A DNA stretch of 20,548 bases. Source: a virus. Location: IMG/VR virus record IMGVR_UViG_3300036791_000481, positions 1 to 20,548 of that record; one strand, written 5' to 3'. The position numbers and the translations under genes are program-made. The notes under the pieces were generated by a model. That model ran no database searches. It saw only the letters and a list, made by a program, of their open reading frames with translations, and was not told where the DNA came from. How positions within the stretch are numbered: the first letter of the stretch is position 1; every line of letters begins with the position of its first letter. Shown in pieces: positions 798 through 16,293 of the stretch.

Positions 798-972
798 CGC
801 TCCTCAGCGCAGCGCGGCTCAACGCCGCTCGCCTCTCCGCAACGCAACTCGCCTCATCTCACCGCGCCGCTCCTCGACGCCACGCCGCTCTCCGCCGCTC
901 GCCGCTCCTCTCCGCGTCGCGCCGCAGCGCAGCGCAGCTCTCCGCATCACATCGCCCCGCAACGCTCCGCAA
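798..972 (+). repeat. CKCNN pentamer array 1 (35 units)
   Basis: Read in steps of five from 798, all 35 consecutive pentamers have the form C-(G/T)-C-N-N except one CAC at 948-950. By hand count there are 22 CGC, 12 CTC and 1 CAC units. The last two bases of each unit vary freely (AA, TC, GC, AG, AT and others). No insertion or deletion breaks the phase over 175 bases. The array starts 7 bases after the stop of the zinc-ribbon gene and stops just before the ribosome-binding site of the next gene. Composition is about 52% C and 22% G on the transcribed-sense strand. A period of 5 is incompatible with conserved coding. I do not recognise it as a described element. Confidence 0.9.
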
Positions 973-980
973 CCACAACC

Positions 981-985
981 GAGGT
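981..985 (+). promoter_or_regulatory. ribosome-binding site for the 993 gene
   Basis: GAGGT lies seven bases before the ATG at 993 and immediately after the end of the pentamer array, so the start is fixed just outside the repeat. Confidence 0.7.
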
Positions 986-992
986 GTAACCC

Positions 993-1586
993 ATGGACTT
1001 CACCCGCGCCGTCGTAACCATCACCGGAACCTCCCCCTACTCCCAGAGCAGAAGCCACAGCGAACCCTTCCTCGAAGGCGAATCTCACGACGCTCACGAC
1101 CGCCGAACCTGGCGCCATAAAATGTCCGTCCAAACCGTCAAAGGAAAAACCACCGTCGTCGTCCCAGCTCACGGGCTCCATCAGGCAATCGCCGCCGCCG
1201 CAAAATATTCCAAACGTCAAATCCCAGGCCAAGGCAAAGCAACCTGGACCGCCAAATTCATGTCAGGCATCGCCATCCTGGAAAACCCGGCGCTCAACAT
1301 CGATCCCCAGTCCGTCGAATCGGTGACGCTCCCCATGAACGCCGACGGCGTCCGCGGCAGCGGAAAGCGCGTGCCCAGAGTGTTCCCCGAGATGCCCGAG
1401 TGGGAATGCACCTTCGAGGTCGTCATCCTCGACCCAATCATCACCGAAGAAATCTTCCGCGACTTCCTGGAACTCGCCGGACTGCTCATCGGCATCGGAC
1501 GCTTTCGCCCAGAGAAAGGCGGCACCAACGGACGCTTCGTCGTCTCCAAGCTGCAATGGGTCGACAACCGACGCGCCGCCGCCTGA
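993..1586 (+). CDS. conserved phage-type protein, possible RAMP/Cas7-like fold
   Basis: A 197-residue protein with a good ribosome-binding site. Three motif regions stand out: an N-terminal strand ending in ITGTSPYSQS (about residues 10-19), a strand-turn-helix VVVPAHGLHQAIAAAAKY (about 55-72) followed by IPGQGKATW, and a C-terminal glycine-rich stretch IGIGRFRPEKGGTNGRF (about 167-183). I have the impression of a conserved phage family of unknown function. The order of elements (first strand, proline-turn-helix, late Gly-rich loop) resembles RAMP-superfamily proteins such as Cas7, but this is by eye only and there is no CRISPR locus here. It sits between two pentamer arrays. The real role is unknown; an RNA- or ssDNA-binding function is a guess. 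Confidence 0.75.
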   Translation: MDFTRAVVTITGTSPYSQSRSHSEPFLEGESHDAHDRRTWRHKMSVQTVKGKTTVVVPAHGLHQAIAAAAKYSKRQIPGQGKATWTAKFMSGIAILENPALNIDPQSVESVTLPMNADGVRGSGKRVPRVFPEMPEWECTFEVVILDPIITEEIFRDFLELAGLLIGIGRFRPEKGGTNGRFVVSKLQWVDNRRAAA

Positions 1587-1590
1587 TCGC

Positions 1591-1770
1591 CGCTCCGCAC
1601 CTCACCGCCCCACATCGCCGCACCACTCACCGCAACGCCACTCCACGCATCGCTTCGCCGCTCGACTCAACTCGCCGCGACGCGCCTCGCCGCTACTCGC
1701 CGCCGCGCTCCTCTGCGCCCCGCTCCGCAACGCATCGCTTCGCAGCTCCGCGCGTCTCAACGCAACGCCC
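1591..1770 (+). repeat. CKCNN pentamer array 2 (36 units)
   Basis: From 1591 to 1770 every pentamer reads C-(G/T)-C-N-N apart from CAC units at 1611 and 1621: 23 CGC, 11 CTC, 2 CAC by hand count. It begins four bases after the TGA of the upstream gene and ends shortly before AGGAG at 1777. Some sub-words recur: CGCATCGCTTCGC at 1646 and again at 1731, and CTCACCGCAACGC at 1626, which is also found in array 3 at 2367. The orientation matches array 1 (C-rich on the plus strand). Confidence 0.9.
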
Positions 1771-1776
1771 CACACC

Positions 1777-1781
1777 AGGAG
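1777..1781 (+). promoter_or_regulatory. ribosome-binding site for the 1788 gene
   Basis: AGGAG with a six-base gap to the ATG at 1788, placed just after the last pentamer of array 2. Confidence 0.8.
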
Positions 1782-1787
1782 AACCCC

Positions 1788-2312
1788 ATGAGCTTCACCG
1801 CCAACACCACAAACGCTCAGCACCTCCGCCGCCTCGCCGACCTCTTCAACACCACCTCAATCGGCGAACTCGCGACCTATCGCGCCATGACCCAGCACCT
1901 CGGCTTCGACATCCACACCCGCCGGTGGCTCACCATCGCAGCCAAGCGCATCGCCAACGAAGAAACCGGCGCCATCTTCGCCACCGAACGCAACGTCGGC
2001 TATCGCCGCCTCCCAGGCGCTCAGGCCCACGCACTCGGCCGACAGGCACGCCATCGCATCCGCAGGGTCAGCAACGTCACCGTCAAATTTATCACCAGAG
2101 CCCTCGTGCTCACCAACGACATGCCAGACGAGGACCGGCGCACCATCCTCACCGAACTCGCTGCGCTGAACCTGCTGAAGCACCTGACCATGGATCGCCA
2201 TCTGCCCCGCGATCCCGGCGTGGCGCCGATGCCGACCGTTGACGCCGTGCGTCGCAGCATCGAGGTGCTGCGGGAGCGCCACCGCGATCCCCCTTCGGCG
2301 CCGCCTCCGTGA
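1788..2312 (+). CDS. probable winged-helix DNA-binding phage protein
   Basis: A 174-residue basic protein. Residues about 22-77 show a pattern I associate with small phage wHTH proteins: a helix, TTSIGELATYRAMTQHLGFD (turn and recognition helix), then RRWLTIAAKRIANEETGAIF and a wing-like segment ending NVGYRRL. The rest is helical and basic (RQARHRIRRVSNVTVKFITR), ending in a proline-rich tail. DNA binding is inferred from this pattern; no operator is known. It lies between pentamer arrays 2 and 3 and upstream of the NusG-like gene, so a role in phage transcription or replication control is plausible. The first part has an unusually uniform C-ending codon choice. The exact family is not recognised. 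Confidence 0.75.
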   Translation: MSFTANTTNAQHLRRLADLFNTTSIGELATYRAMTQHLGFDIHTRRWLTIAAKRIANEETGAIFATERNVGYRRLPGAQAHALGRQARHRIRRVSNVTVKFITRALVLTNDMPDEDRRTILTELAALNLLKHLTMDRHLPRDPGVAPMPTVDAVRRSIEVLRERHRDPPSAPPP

Positions 2313-2321
2313 ACCAATCGC

Positions 2322-2391
2322 CGCACCTCAACTCAGCGCTACGCCCCGCCTCGCAACGCAGCTCGGCTCACCGCAACGCATCGCATCTCCC
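2322..2391 (+). repeat. CKCNN pentamer array 3 (14 units)
   Basis: Fourteen uninterrupted pentamers of the form C-(G/T)-C-N-N: 9 CGC and 5 CTC, no exception. It starts nine bases after the stop of the wHTH gene and ends 22 bases before the ATG of the NusG-like gene. It is shorter than arrays 1 and 2 but has the same strand orientation and a similar right boundary, a run of CCAC/ACC before the start region. Confidence 0.88.
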
Positions 2392-2413: not shown

Positions 2414-2998
2414 ATGCTTGACGCACAACCGGACAGGGGGTTAGATCGCCAACAGAGCCGGATCGGTCCTATTCCCGTCCGGTGCGGTAGCCGTCATGGC
2501 CCCCGCTGGTTCGTCGCCACCACCCACGACCCGGCCGTCGCCGACACCAACCTCGCCAACCAGCACTTCGAAGCCTGGTTCCCCACCATCGCCGTCCGCC
2601 GCCGCGATCCTCGCGGCCGATGGGACGTGGTGCCCAGGCCGCTGTTCGGCCCCAGCTACATCTTCGTCCGCTTCAACCCCGCTGCCGACCCGTGGGGCGT
2701 CATCCTGAGCACCTACGGCGTCCGGTCCATCATCATGTTCGAACTCGGTATTCCAGCACCATGCCAGGAGGGGGCCGTGGAAGCCCTCCAGGCGGGCGAG
2801 GAGGCCAGGCGGCTACTCACCCACCAGCCGGACGAGACGCTGCGGGCACTGAGCTCGTGTCAGGTCGTCGCCGGTCCCTTCCGTGGCCACCGCGGTCAGG
2901 TCGTGGCCGTGAACGGAGGACGGGTTGTGGTTACCCTGATGATCTTCGGCCGGTTGCAGGACGTTCACGTCGCGGCCTCCTGTCTGGAGGCAGCCTAA
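2414..2998 (+). CDS. NusG-like transcription elongation/antitermination factor
   Basis: A 194-residue protein with the two-domain layout of the NusG family. Residues about 30-110 match an NGN domain: PRWFVATTHDP at the start, HFEAWFPTIAVRRRD, then LFGPSYIFVRFNP, and a strand ending in GVRSIIMF. Residues about 149-180 form a KOW domain: CQVVAGPFRGHRGQVVAVNG followed by RVVVTLMIFG. Family knowledge: NusG and its specialised paralogues (RfaH, LoaP and others) bind RNA polymerase beside the transcription bubble and change pausing or Rho-dependent termination. A phage-encoded copy is likely a specialised paralogue acting on phage operons; this is inference. It is the last gene of the run that carries pentamer arrays, and its TAA overlaps the stop of the convergent minus-strand zinc-finger frame. 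Confidence 0.88.
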   Translation: MLDAQPDRGLDRQQSRIGPIPVRCGSRHGPRWFVATTHDPAVADTNLANQHFEAWFPTIAVRRRDPRGRWDVVPRPLFGPSYIFVRFNPAADPWGVILSTYGVRSIIMFELGIPAPCQEGAVEALQAGEEARRLLTHQPDETLRALSSCQVVAGPFRGHRGQVVAVNGGRVVVTLMIFGRLQDVHVAASCLEAA

Positions 2999-7614: not shown

Positions 7615-9835
7615 GTCCTCCTCCCTCACTGTCACCACCAGCCGCAGGAATGACTGGCCCACTGCCGTTGCGCAATACAACGGCAATGCCACCGATTTCC
7701 CGCGCGACGCCGACGAGCAGCACGCGCGGCTCATCAGATGGTTTGAGGAGGCGGAACGCTCTACGCAGGACAGCCGCGTCGCATCGGAGAACTACCGCGC
7801 TTACGTCAACGGCGAGCAGTGGACGCCGGCCGAACTCGATGTGCTCAATGCGCGCGGGCAACCGCCCATCACCTTCAATTACTGCCGCCGGAAGCACGAC
7901 CTGCTGTGCGGCCTCGAGCGCAAAGCACGCACGGATCCAAAAGCGTTCCCGCGCACGCCCGCCGAGGACGAGCGCGCCGACGCCGCTACCCAGTGCCTGC
8001 GCTACATCGCCGACGACAACGACTTTCAGCCGCTGCGCTCCCAGGTCTTCAGCGAGATGCTGGTGGAGGGCTTCGGCGGCCTCGAGGTCGGGATCGAGGA
8101 CGATGGCCAGGGCGGCGCGAATGTCACGCTTGCACAAGTGCCGTGGGATCGCATCTGGTATGACCCGCATTCGCGCCAGGACGATTTCCTCGATGCGAGG
8201 TATATCGGCATCGTTATCTGGATGGATCGCGATCAGCTCGAGGATACGTATCCGGATGCCGGCGATGTGGTCGAGGACAGCTTTGCATTCTCGACCAACG
8301 ACGCAACGCAGTATGCCGACCGGCCGAATTACATGGTCTGGACCGACAGCAGCCGCACCCGGGTTCGTGTTGCGCAATGCCACTGGTCAGAGCGTGGCAC
8401 GTGGTGGAGCGCCACATTCACCCGCGCCGGGTATCTCGCCGAGCCACAGAAGTCGATGTTCAAGGACCGGCACGGGAAATCCGCGTGCCCGCTGATCCTG
8501 CAGAGCGGCTACACGGACCTCGACAATACGCGCTACGGCATGATCCGCGACTTGATCAGCCCGCAGGACATGATCAACAAGGCATATTCCAAGGCGCTGC
8601 ATCAGATGAGCGTCCACCAGGTGATCGCCGAGCAGGGCGCGGTGGTCGACGTCGACAAGGCGCGGCGCGAGGTGGCGCGGCCGGACGGCTACGTCGAGAT
8701 CATGCCGGGGCTGAAGTTCGAGGTGCAGGACGGCGCCAATAACGCCACCGGGCAGATGGCGCTGCTCGCACACGCAACCCAGGAGATGCAGCTGTCGGGC
8801 CCCAACGCGGCGATGTCGGGCACGGATCCCCGGGAACTCTCCGGCCGCGCGATCCTCGCCCAGCAGGCGGGCGGTGCGGTGCAGAACGAGCCGTTGGCCG
8901 ACAGCCTGCGGATGTGGGCGCGGCGTGTCTACGAAATGTGCTGGCAGGCGGCGCGGGAATACTGGACCAGCGGCAAGTGGGTGCGGGTGACCGACAGCCT
9001 GCAGGACACGCGCTGGGTCGGCATCAACCGGCAGGTCACGCTGCAGGACGAACTCGCCGCCATGCCCGAGCAGCAGCGCGCCATGGTGATGCAACGCATG
9101 CAGCCGCCATTGCAGCCGGGCGATCCGCGGCTCGAGCAGGTGATCCGCGTCGAGAACGACATTACTGACCTCGACGTGGATATCACCATCGCCGAGGGCC
9201 AGGACGTGCCCACGATGCAGGCGGAGAATTTCCAGACGCTGGTGCAATTGGCTGGCATGCAGCCTGGGCTGATCCCGGGCGATGTGCTGATTGCGGCGTC
9301 CTCGCTGCGCGACAAGGACGACCTGTTGCAGCGCATGAAGGCGCACATGGCGCAGCAGGCGCAGGTGCAGCAGGCAGCGGGGCAGGCGGCGCAGCAGAAG
9401 GCGCAGGCGGAGACCACCGAGACGCAATCCAAGGCGGCGGCCAACATGGCGCTGGCCAAAGAGCGGCAGGTCAATGCGGCACGCGGCGTGCACGACATCC
9501 ATGCCGACTTCAACGCCGATCCCTACGGGCAGCCGAACGTGGCGCCGGATAATCCGCCGGGGGTTGGCCCGCAGCCGCCGACGATCGATCAGATGACGCC
9601 TGATGTTGCGCTTGCCCACCAGATGGCGGACCTCGCCAAGAAGCACGCCGACATTGCCAAGACGCACGCCGACGCGGCGCTGACGACGGCGAAGATCGGC
9701 CAGATCCCGCACCAGAACGTGGCGACACAGGCCGGCACGCTCAACACGCTGCATGACGCGGCCAACACGGCACTGACCACGAACAGGTTGGCCAGGACAC
9801 CGATACCGCAGCCGGCGCCACCGACTGCGCCATGA
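7613..9835 (+). CDS. P22-type portal protein
   Basis: A 740-residue protein, close to the length of P22-type portals. The N-terminal part is typical: ARLIRWFEEAERSTQDSR, then ENYRAYVNGEQW, QPPITFNYCRRKHDLLCG and FSEMLVEGFGGLEVGIEDD. The core continues with VPWDRIWYDPHSR. From about residue 580 the chain is Gln/Ala-rich and coiled-coil-like (QQAQVQQAAGQAAQQKAQ), as in the barrel extension of such portals, and it ends with RTPIPQPAPPTAP. Role: the dodecameric ring through which DNA enters and leaves the head. The ATG at 7613 is the only start available: an in-frame TGA lies nine bases upstream and no start-like codon follows for many residues. No ribosome-binding site is visible. Confidence 0.92.
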   Translation: MSSSLTVTTSRRNDWPTAVAQYNGNATDFPRDADEQHARLIRWFEEAERSTQDSRVASENYRAYVNGEQWTPAELDVLNARGQPPITFNYCRRKHDLLCGLERKARTDPKAFPRTPAEDERADAATQCLRYIADDNDFQPLRSQVFSEMLVEGFGGLEVGIEDDGQGGANVTLAQVPWDRIWYDPHSRQDDFLDARYIGIVIWMDRDQLEDTYPDAGDVVEDSFAFSTNDATQYADRPNYMVWTDSSRTRVRVAQCHWSERGTWWSATFTRAGYLAEPQKSMFKDRHGKSACPLILQSGYTDLDNTRYGMIRDLISPQDMINKAYSKALHQMSVHQVIAEQGAVVDVDKARREVARPDGYVEIMPGLKFEVQDGANNATGQMALLAHATQEMQLSGPNAAMSGTDPRELSGRAILAQQAGGAVQNEPLADSLRMWARRVYEMCWQAAREYWTSGKWVRVTDSLQDTRWVGINRQVTLQDELAAMPEQQRAMVMQRMQPPLQPGDPRLEQVIRVENDITDLDVDITIAEGQDVPTMQAENFQTLVQLAGMQPGLIPGDVLIAASSLRDKDDLLQRMKAHMAQQAQVQQAAGQAAQQKAQAETTETQSKAAANMALAKERQVNAARGVHDIHADFNADPYGQPNVAPDNPPGVGPQPPTIDQMTPDVALAHQMADLAKKHADIAKTHADAALTTAKIGQIPHQNVATQAGTLNTLHDAANTALTTNRLARTPIPQPAPPTAP

Positions 9836-10068
9836 CCAGAATGGAGCGCGACATTTACGAAGTGCGGCGATTGGTGGGCTTCACTTCGCTGATCTACGAG
9901 TTGACGCAGGATGGCGGCTTTACCGTCAGTTTTACCGCGCCGGACGGCAGGCGGGGGCGACTTCGCATGTTGCTCAGCGAGCCTCACGAACCCCGTCACG
10001 TCGCGGCTGCGGTAATGCGAAAGTTGCGCACGCCCATTCCACAGCCGGCGCCGCCGGCGGGGCCGTAA
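9832..10068 (+). CDS. small protein sharing the portal C-terminal tail
   Basis: A 78-residue protein starting at the ATGA overlap with the portal stop and ending in TAATG with the next gene. The first 60 residues look like a compact alpha/beta domain (LIYELTQDGGFTVSFTAPDG). Its last 13 residues, RTPIPQPAPPAGP, nearly repeat the portal's last 13. This suggests copying of the tail or a shared binding tag. No family recognised. Confidence 0.65.
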   Translation: MTRMERDIYEVRRLVGFTSLIYELTQDGGFTVSFTAPDGRRGRLRMLLSEPHEPRHVAAAVMRKLRTPIPQPAPPAGP

Positions 10069-11201
10069 TGTCGGACACGCTGCTCGGGCAGAACGCGCTG
10101 TTCGACCCGCTGCGCATTCAGCAGCCGGACCCGGGGCAGGTGTCGCTGTCCGATGCGTGGACGGCCAACACCAAGGCGCTGGGTGATGAGATCGCGCGGC
10201 AGCGGCAGATCAGCGCCGATCGCGGGCTATGGGGGCCGCAGGGGATTACGCCGGCCGGTGCGCGCGATGCCGGGATGCAGATGGCAATGGGGACGGCGCT
10301 GGCCAGCACGGCGCCGGCCGACAAGCCGCCCGGCATTACCGTGTTTCACGGATCGCCGCACGACTTCGATGCGTTCGATGCGAGCAAGATCGGCACCGGC
10401 GAGGGCGCGCAGGCGTATGGGCACGGGCTGTATTTCGCCGAGGGCGAAGGGGTGGCGAAAAGCTATCGGGACAAGCTGGAAACCCCGACATTCGATGCGC
10501 CGAACCTGTCGGCACCGGCACGGGCGTGGTTGGATAATACGGTTGCGGGAAATCCGATTGCTACGACGGCCGATATAGGTCAGGCGGCGCGCAATTCGTC
10601 GAAATACTACGGCGCCGATCACCCCATTGGGCAGGCTGCCGCCGAGGTGGCGCAGGGGGTAAAGGCTGGGGATGTCGCTCGCGTTCCATCCGGCCGCATG
10701 TATGAGGTGAACATCGCCGCCGACCCGCAGCACTTCCTCGACTGGGACAAGCCGCTGTCCGAGCAGCATCCCTTGGTGCAGCAGGCGCTAGGCGATCTGG
10801 GCGTTGATATCCCCTCGCCGGCCTACAAGGTGCGCCCGGTCGACGGCGGCCACGTTGTCGATTACACGCATGACGGTAGCAATTGGTCAGCTTCATCGCG
10901 GGTGTTCAAAACCGCCGAGGAAGCCACGCGGCAGGCGGACATTACCATGCAGATGATGGACCGTCCGACCGGCGCCGCAGTGATAAAACGCGATCCCGGT
11001 GTAGAATCCAAACTGCGCGACGCCGGTATCCCCGGCATCCGATACCTCGACGCCGGATCGCGCGGTGCGGGCAGCGGGACGAGCAACTACGTCGTGTTCG
11101 ATCCGAAGATGCTGTCCATCGTGCGCAAATACGCGGTGCCGGCGTTCGCCACCGCAGGCGGCATCCCCGCCGCAATGGGCGGCTCGCAGCCGCAGCAGTA
11201 A
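10068..11201 (+). CDS. ADP-ribosyltransferase-fold protein (ART-PolyVal-like)
   Basis: A 377-residue protein. After a disordered N-terminal 85 residues comes TVFHGSPHDFDAFDASKIGT (His94), then QAYGHGLYFAE (Tyr122, Glu125), a signature of the ART domain found in phage polyvalent proteins. The fold closes near the C-terminus with GIPGIRYLD and TSNYVVFDPKMLSIVRKYA (about 334-368). Family knowledge: such domains move ADP-ribose from NAD to a target, and in phages many are thought to be injected or virion-associated. Its place between portal and scaffold fits packaging in the head or an ejected early effector; that is inference. Activity depends on residues I cannot confirm by eye. Confidence 0.82.
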   Translation: MSDTLLGQNALFDPLRIQQPDPGQVSLSDAWTANTKALGDEIARQRQISADRGLWGPQGITPAGARDAGMQMAMGTALASTAPADKPPGITVFHGSPHDFDAFDASKIGTGEGAQAYGHGLYFAEGEGVAKSYRDKLETPTFDAPNLSAPARAWLDNTVAGNPIATTADIGQAARNSSKYYGADHPIGQAAAEVAQGVKAGDVARVPSGRMYEVNIAADPQHFLDWDKPLSEQHPLVQQALGDLGVDIPSPAYKVRPVDGGHVVDYTHDGSNWSASSRVFKTAEEATRQADITMQMMDRPTGAAVIKRDPGVESKLRDAGIPGIRYLDAGSRGAGSGTSNYVVFDPKMLSIVRKYAVPAFATAGGIPAAMGGSQPQQ

Positions 11202-15429: not shown

Positions 15430-16293
15430 ATGACCGTGCATCTGCACTACGCCGCCTATCCCTCGTCGGTCGAGGTGCCGGTGGTGGGACCACCGGGTCC
15501 GCCTGGGCCGGTTGGACCGGCAGGCCCGGCAGGGCCGCCAGGAACGCCGGGAGGGCCGCCAGGCCCCACCGGACCCGCCGGACCAGCGGGGGCCGGCAGC
15601 GTGGCCAATATCGGGCGCAACCGGCTGCACAACAGCGGCTTCAGCGTCAACCAGCGCACCTATGTCAGCGGCACCGCGCTGGCGGCGGCAGCCTACGCGC
15701 ACGATCGTTGGAAGGCCGGCGCCGGGGGCTGCACCTACACATTCACGCAAACGCAGCCGTTCACCACCATTACGATCACCGCCGGCACGCTGCAGCAGAT
15801 CGTCGAGGCGATGAACGTCGAAGGCGGCGCCTATGTGCTGTCGTGGACGGGGACGGCGCAGGCGCGGATCAATGCCGGCACGTATGCCGCAAGCCCGGTG
15901 ACGATCACGGGCCTCACCGCCAATGCCGCGATCACGGTGGAGTTTAACGCCGGCACGCTTGGCGCGGCGCAGCTTGAGCCGGGAAGCGCGGCGACGTCGG
16001 TGGAAAAGCGCGATCCGATGCTGGAAAAGGCGCTCTGCCAGCGGTTCTATCAAACGGCGCCATTGCGCGTGCAGGGATGGGCCGAGGGCGCTAACGTCAT
16101 AGCGGCACAGTGGCAACCGTTCATTACCAGTATGCGGGCCTCGCCCACAATCACGCCGAACTACAGCACGCAGTCAAATTGTGCCGGCTCCATTGGCACG
16201 ACAACCGCCGACGGCTTCCAGCCGTTTGCCATCGGGGTCGCGACTGGGCAGATGAACCTGCAAGGGACATTCACCGCATCCGCTGATTTATAG
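15430..16293 (+). CDS. collagen-repeat tail fibre protein
   Basis: A 287-residue protein. Residues about 20-55 are Gly-X-Y repeats (GPPGPPGPVGPAGPAGPPG and onward), a collagen-like trimer stalk. The remainder is beta-rich: NRLHNSGFSVNQRTYVSG, AYAHDRWKAGAGGCTYTF, then WTGTAQARINAGTY, a layout I associate with phage receptor-binding and carbohydrate-binding tips. The likely role is a virion fibre contacting the cell surface. It starts three bases after the adaptor stop; the nearest GGAG is rather far upstream. Confidence 0.78.
   Translation: MTVHLHYAAYPSSVEVPVVGPPGPPGPVGPAGPAGPPGTPGGPPGPTGPAGPAGAGSVANIGRNRLHNSGFSVNQRTYVSGTALAAAAYAHDRWKAGAGGCTYTFTQTQPFTTITITAGTLQQIVEAMNVEGGAYVLSWTGTAQARINAGTYAASPVTITGLTANAAITVEFNAGTLGAAQLEPGSAATSVEKRDPMLEKALCQRFYQTAPLRVQGWAEGANVIAAQWQPFITSMRASPTITPNYSTQSNCAGSIGTTTADGFQPFAIGVATGQMNLQGTFTASADL

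Follow-up and report, generated by a model that had tools for sequence, protein, structure and literature searches.

Three consecutive gene gaps in a viral DNA fragment of 20,548 nucleotides (the whole stretch analyzed, referred to here as the window) are filled by long arrays of degenerate pentamers, and the question raised by this locus is what such arrays are for. The window is a fragment of a tailed phage, with terminase, P22-like portal and capsid genes present. Array 1 (798–972, plus strand) consists of 35 CNCNN units, 34 of them CKC and one CAC; array 2 (1591–1775, plus strand) consists of 37 CNCNN units and array 3 (2322–2391, plus strand) of 14. They occupy the gaps at 791–992, 1587–1787 and 2313–2413, each flanked by open reading frames on the same strand. 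An earlier sequence-only reading had already placed them in three consecutive gene gaps. That reading counted 82 C-(G/T)-C-N-N units and three CAC units among 85 pentamers (798–972, 1591–1770 and 2322–2391) in constant phase. A recount reproduced these numbers exactly and revealed no slip or indel, and the extents given for arrays 1 and 3 stood, whereas array 2 proved to be one unit longer, its extra final unit CACAC reaching 1775. All 85 pentamers carry C at positions 1 and 3, whereas position 2 holds G (54 units), T (28) or A (three) but never C. There are 29 distinct units and 16 distinct NN pairs across the arrays.

The longest uninterrupted CKC runs in the three arrays comprise 30, 29 and 14 units. 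A chance origin was assessed by shuffling and rejected: the longest CKC run reached 8 units when each array was dinucleotide-shuffled 500 times and 5 units when the whole window was shuffled 30 times. Runs of the array type were absent from the minus strand and from the remainder of the window. Tandem Repeats Finder recovered fragments of the arrays only and no repeat family besides the pentamers in the window, and an Rfam search returned no match for the arrays. The arrays are neither ordinary sequence nor artefact. From the letters alone, CKCNN units can form no stop codon, no ATG, GTG or TTG start and no purine-rich Shine-Dalgarno sequence in any forward frame, so the arrays would be translation-neutral inside an operon. 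An open reading frame at 435–989 runs through array 1.

Gene A (993–1586, plus strand; 197 amino acids; phrog_4652) lies between arrays 1 and 2. A profile derived from positions 993–1583 detected one sequence in the PDB, 36pp_D, “SUSP1 Vipr protein” (E 8e-10, 121 positions). The structural model of gene A (pLDDT 94.9) best matched Cas7-like (Csm3) subunits of type VII and type III systems (Z 12.7, residues 1–197), and a G-rich motif, GIGRFRPExGGxNGRF, is conserved. Gene A is predicted from this model to be a single-domain Cas7/Csm3-like RAMP of the Vipr type; profile match, fold and motif all agree with the single RAMP/RRM-type protein of ∼20 kD with a G-loop that is characteristic of VIPR.

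VIPR, for Viral Interference Programmable Repeat, was introduced in a preprint of April/June 2026 (PMC13142463), the available text of which gives Escherichia phage SUSP1 and a Pseudomonas fulva prophage as examples. There, the system consists of a minimal RAMP, an accessory gene (vap) with a role in DNA interaction, and vrRNAs of 9–16 GGY/NN pentamers carrying an invariable 3′ tail. The vrRNA is described as recognizing double-stranded DNA without a PAM, each NN being paired and one target base skipped, and the system as serving phage-phage conflict. Seven types are mentioned, with “GGY/NN or a related consensus.” The sequence-only reading knew of no named element of this form, a statement that no longer holds: the form matches the vrRNA arrays of VIPR (PMC13142463), though with GGY as anchor there and C[G/T]C here. 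Its alternative that the runs might be fragments of a known repeat family is borne out insofar as a named system now exists.

Gene B (1788–2312, plus strand; 174 amino acids) lies between arrays 2 and 3 and is a putative vap-like accessory gene. Its model (pLDDT 91.4) matched winged-helix proteins weakly, and its N-terminal part is predicted to be winged-helix-like. Using a profile from positions 1788–2309, the gene B family was found in 65 array loci among the matches listed, and homologs lie near vipr in several GGY systems, including that of phage LESphi2 (E 6e-23 to 3e-4). Pfam and PADLOC revealed no cas genes among the cassette genes tested, and Pfam revealed no Nop domain in array-flanking genes. 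The arrays, the Vipr-type RAMP gene and the putative vap-like gene form one same-strand cassette. As in VIPR, to judge from the available text of PMC13142463, a phage-encoded minimal RAMP and a small accessory gene are flanked by intergenic pentamer arrays in which a constant triplet alternates with two variable bases. By contrast with that description, the GGY triplet is absent, all 85 units being C[G/T/A]C; two arrays have 35 and 37 units rather than 9–16; and the arrays fill operon gaps with at most a very short tail.

The distribution of CKC arrays was examined by pattern scanning. Ten CKCNN units were sought in 2.9 million viral contigs, which gave at least 119 stretches; among the matches listed, 86 contigs carried degenerate arrays and 33 plain repeats. 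A stricter pattern gave 95 stretches in 84,980 bacterial and archaeal genomes, only 15 of them degenerate arrays, several on short phage-like contigs or in a prophage. Among the viral matches listed, gene A was flanked by arrays in 67 of the 86 degenerate-array contigs versus none of the 33 simple-repeat contigs, and gene A or B was present in 70 of 86 versus 0 of 33 loci; with a broader profile, a GGY-type Vipr was found in two of the 33 simple-repeat loci listed. Arrays lay on the strand of gene A in 319 of 321 cases among the matches listed, and gene A was present in 6 of the 13 searched genomes with degenerate arrays. The claim that a fixed degenerate frame free of indels points to selection on positions 1–3 of each unit, and not to slippage, is upheld. 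Sixteen degenerate-CKC loci lacked gene A and gene B in the fetched stretch when searched with the first profiles (L042, L050, L053, L059, L065, L072, L081, L083, L087, L096, L099, L103, L104, L126, L141 and L147); these may be cut contigs, loci with more distant Viprs (as in L083) or effector-less arrays.

Arrays are absent from most contigs that carry close relatives of the window's capsid gene. In the two loci that have arrays and gene A (L305 and L307), a two-gene cassette is arranged as gene A, array, gene B. A third contig, L278, has a 36-base gap (623–659) where L307 has 1.3 kb (7775–9066) between the same two flanking genes, as if the cassette in L307 had been gained as a unit. Between L305 and L307 the cassette is common and the CKC triplets are kept, with NN pairs that are unrelated. 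Peptide patterns from the window's gene A or NusG-like protein retrieved no relatives from the viral contigs. Elsewhere in the window, the stretch at 10068–11201, adjoining the portal gene, gave a weak, sub-cut-off match to an ADP-ribosyltransferase domain of polyvalent proteins, and collagen-like Gly-Pro-Pro repeats at 15499–15584 fall within a gene that probably encodes a tail or fibre protein.

When GGYNN was the only pattern scanned for, 120 loci were obtained, in 93 of which the gene A profile detected a Vipr; over all GGY loci with Vipr, arrays lay on the Vipr strand by 346 to 6. In phage LESphi2, GGY arrays lie upstream of a homolog of gene A. In a tree of 155 Viprs, 65 of the 67 CKC systems fell in one clade (support 100/100), which also holds two GGY systems (L349 and L424), and the other two CKC systems (L097 and L144) sit in the GGY part. 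Four anchor changes sufficed on this tree, versus about 50 with shuffled labels, so that the whole-array anchor seems to have switched a few times and the window belongs to a CKC branch of VIPR. Clade history dominates the residues that covary with the anchor; position 16 (S) alone is common to the two CKC groups, and S is retained in the systems that reverted to GGY. On an Azospirillum plasmid, a Vipr homolog (L331, 5599–6384) adjoins DNA methyltransferase and helicase genes, and the 12 kb retrieved there contain neither GGY nor CKC arrays.

The capacity of the arrays to specify targets was assessed by reading each NN pair as two target bases followed by one skipped base (NNxNNx). Read antisense in this way, array 3 spells V-P-L-F-S/R-G-Y-L-F-V, a NusG/RfaH-like motif. 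An exact 18-base gapped pattern from units 2–10 was then searched for in the 2.9 million viral contigs. Six stretches were found, and all six lie inside genes for NusG paralogs (NusG-like antiterminators); each is in frame, skips the wobble base of the codons and encodes the peptide VPLFSGYLFV. Four of the six also match unit 1, giving 20/20 matching bases over units 1–10 (2322–2371). The six matches represent about three lineages, as L466–L468 are near-identical and L469 and L471 are alike. Array 3 read with other skips gave no matches in the same target contigs, and units 11–14, a probable tail, did not match the NusG targets.

The phage's own NusG/RfaH-like gene (2414–2998, plus strand) stands directly after array 3, which targets the NusG-like genes of others. 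Its motif, PLFGPSYIFV, is one codon longer, and the best match of array 3 to it is 12/20; given this difference at the targeted motif, the guide would spare its owner. NusG was considered as a universal array partner and rejected, since just 5 of the 49 array records contain it; the cassette has NusG as a target and as an adjacent gene rather than as one of its parts. L468 and L470 are target phages whose NusG gene adjoins a relative of the small-terminase-like gene, as it does in the window, and this shared neighbourhood makes these phages likely competitors of the window phage. Another NusG-targeted phage, L471, has a distant Vipr-like open reading frame of its own (8954–9760, E 1e-8), which would fit mutual warfare.

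A second decoded cassette is that of a Paracoccus litorisediminis prophage, where four discrete CKC guides each end in CGCAA units. Guide 4, read as NNxNNx against 125 Paracoccus genomes, gave a single match of 23/26, with none for the control, in a serine recombinase gene of another bacterium (IYTRKSSEEGLD). Guide 1 matches the same gene at 21/22, 204 bases from the guide 4 site and with the skip at the wobble position; the recombinase contig had been retrieved by guide 4 only, and the guide 1 match was found afterwards. Guide 3 gave two matches, at chance level. Matches to the NN pairs with one base skipped, the skip falling at the codon wobble position and the targets lying in competing phages or mobile elements, as in the available description of VIPR, were thus found for array 3 and for Paracoccus guides 1 and 4. 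All three of these guides are complementary to the target mRNA. The sequence-only reading held that the NN positions vary freely; they are indeed variable, with 16 pairs, and since they decode to specific genes, the positions thought free appear to be the payload that carries the guide information.

Chance levels for the array 3 scan are calibrated by two further scans of the viral contigs, namely an exact 18-base pattern from Paracoccus guide 4, which gave no matches, and a 16-base pattern from array 2, which gave eight unrelated matches, at chance level and in no coherent gene. Array 2 also found no targets in 397 genomes, and a 17/20 match inside the targeted nusG gene of L466 is suggestive only. 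For array 1, one match with three mismatches in a chromosomal gene was taken as chance, and peptides guessed from arrays 1 and 2 were not found in phage records. A local target search with all CKC guides gave 110 matches at a score of at least 14 with a skip of one, versus 60–86 otherwise, a small excess that decides nothing by itself, in a small database in which the GGY positive control gave none.

The ends of 251 CKC arrays were also compared. The NN pair was AA in 55, 53 and 38% of the last three units versus 9.5% inside, and at several CKC loci a constant sequence is repeated after each array. Together with the unmatched units 11–14 of array 3, these AA-rich ends suggest that the guide product is likely ∼10 units with a short tail. 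Arrays of more than 16 units make up 27% of CKC and 11% of GGY arrays, and each of the two long arrays of the window could be either one very long guide or a series of guides linked in phase.

Taken together, the arrays very probably encode the guide RNAs of a VIPR system whose anchor is C-K-C. By analogy with the SUSP1 experiments, array RNA would be transcribed with the operon and then cut out; Vipr subunits would bind it, one per pentamer, keeping the constant C-K-C out of pairing; each NN would pair with target DNA, one target base being skipped per unit; and the bound complex would block transcription of the rival phage's antiterminator, and hence rival gene expression. What counts against this reading is that arrays 1 and 2 are without found targets, that their 35 and 37 units exceed the 9–16 described, that the anchor is not GGY, that the six NusG matches come down to about three lineages and that Paracoccus guide 4 had no exact match in viral contigs. 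The intergenic, sense-strand position of the arrays, a short distance ahead of the following start codon, would also suit a repeat-binding site like that of TRAP, at which an oligomeric protein would bind C-K-C triplets in mRNA and regulate the following gene at translation or termination, the NN being spacers. TRAP itself binds (G/U)AG triplets with spacers of 2–3 nucleotides, and its sites resemble the arrays as leader-RNA triplets with two-base separation. They differ in the triplet, in numbering 11 or so and in having spacers that hold no information; no TRAP gene is present in the window, gene A is a predicted RAMP, and a single fixed rule links array 3 and two Paracoccus guides to particular phage genes. 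Such a site is very improbable.

That the VIPR guides have the mRNA of rival phages, and not the DNA, as their target would be consistent with the antisense orientation of all three decoded guides and with the nearest folds, which are Csm3 and type VII subunits of RNA-targeting CRISPR complexes. However, three guides are a small sample, and the available text of PMC13142463 has SUSP1 VIPR binding double-stranded DNA, with silencing when either strand is targeted, so we regard an RNA target as quite improbable. Plain tandem-repeat slippage, low-complexity sequence or assembly artefact might be suspected because simple pentamer repeats are picked up by the pattern scan too, making up about a quarter of the viral matches listed and most of the genome matches. 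Nevertheless, 29 different units show no indels, the arrays accompany one gene family on one strand across many metagenomes, and they decode to targets; this explanation has a vanishingly small probability.

The VIPR reading also sets the locus apart from other guide systems. Class 1 CRISPR-Cas types III and VII share the RAMP fold (Csm3/Cas7) and the expected polymerization on guide RNA. By contrast, the window lacks CRISPR repeats and spacers, no Cas10, Cas5, Cas6 or Cas1/2 was detected among the cassette genes tested, and the alternation of constant with variable bases has a period of five. TIGR-Tas (PMC12045711) likewise has phage-encoded tandem guide arrays and no PAM, but it is described as using another protein family and long repeats that hold contiguous dual spacers, with no pentamer code; Pfam detects no Nop domain near the CKC arrays, and gene A has a predicted RAMP fold.

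The preprint limits the novelty of these observations, as its “related consensus” types may already include CKC (PMC13142463). It is put forward tentatively, and with rather less than even confidence, that CKC is a distinct VIPR branch outside the main text of that preprint, in which the anchor switched between GGY and CKC a few times, the arrays being rewritten each time, and that guides of at least 30 units could read targets of ∼100 bases. Among RNA-guided systems, VIPR is the first whose code is noncontiguous, and it is a proposed ancestor of CRISPR. In the CKC variant, the constant triplet has changed completely and yet this code of two bases read and one skipped persists, so the anchor would be a protein-RNA contact that coevolves and is open to dissection along the tree. 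The variant extends VIPR to soil phages and alphaproteobacterial prophages, and its natural targets can be named: NusG-like antiterminators and serine recombinases, which are control points of the phage life cycle. Guides decoded in this way could reveal, from metagenomes, which phages and elements are in conflict with one another.
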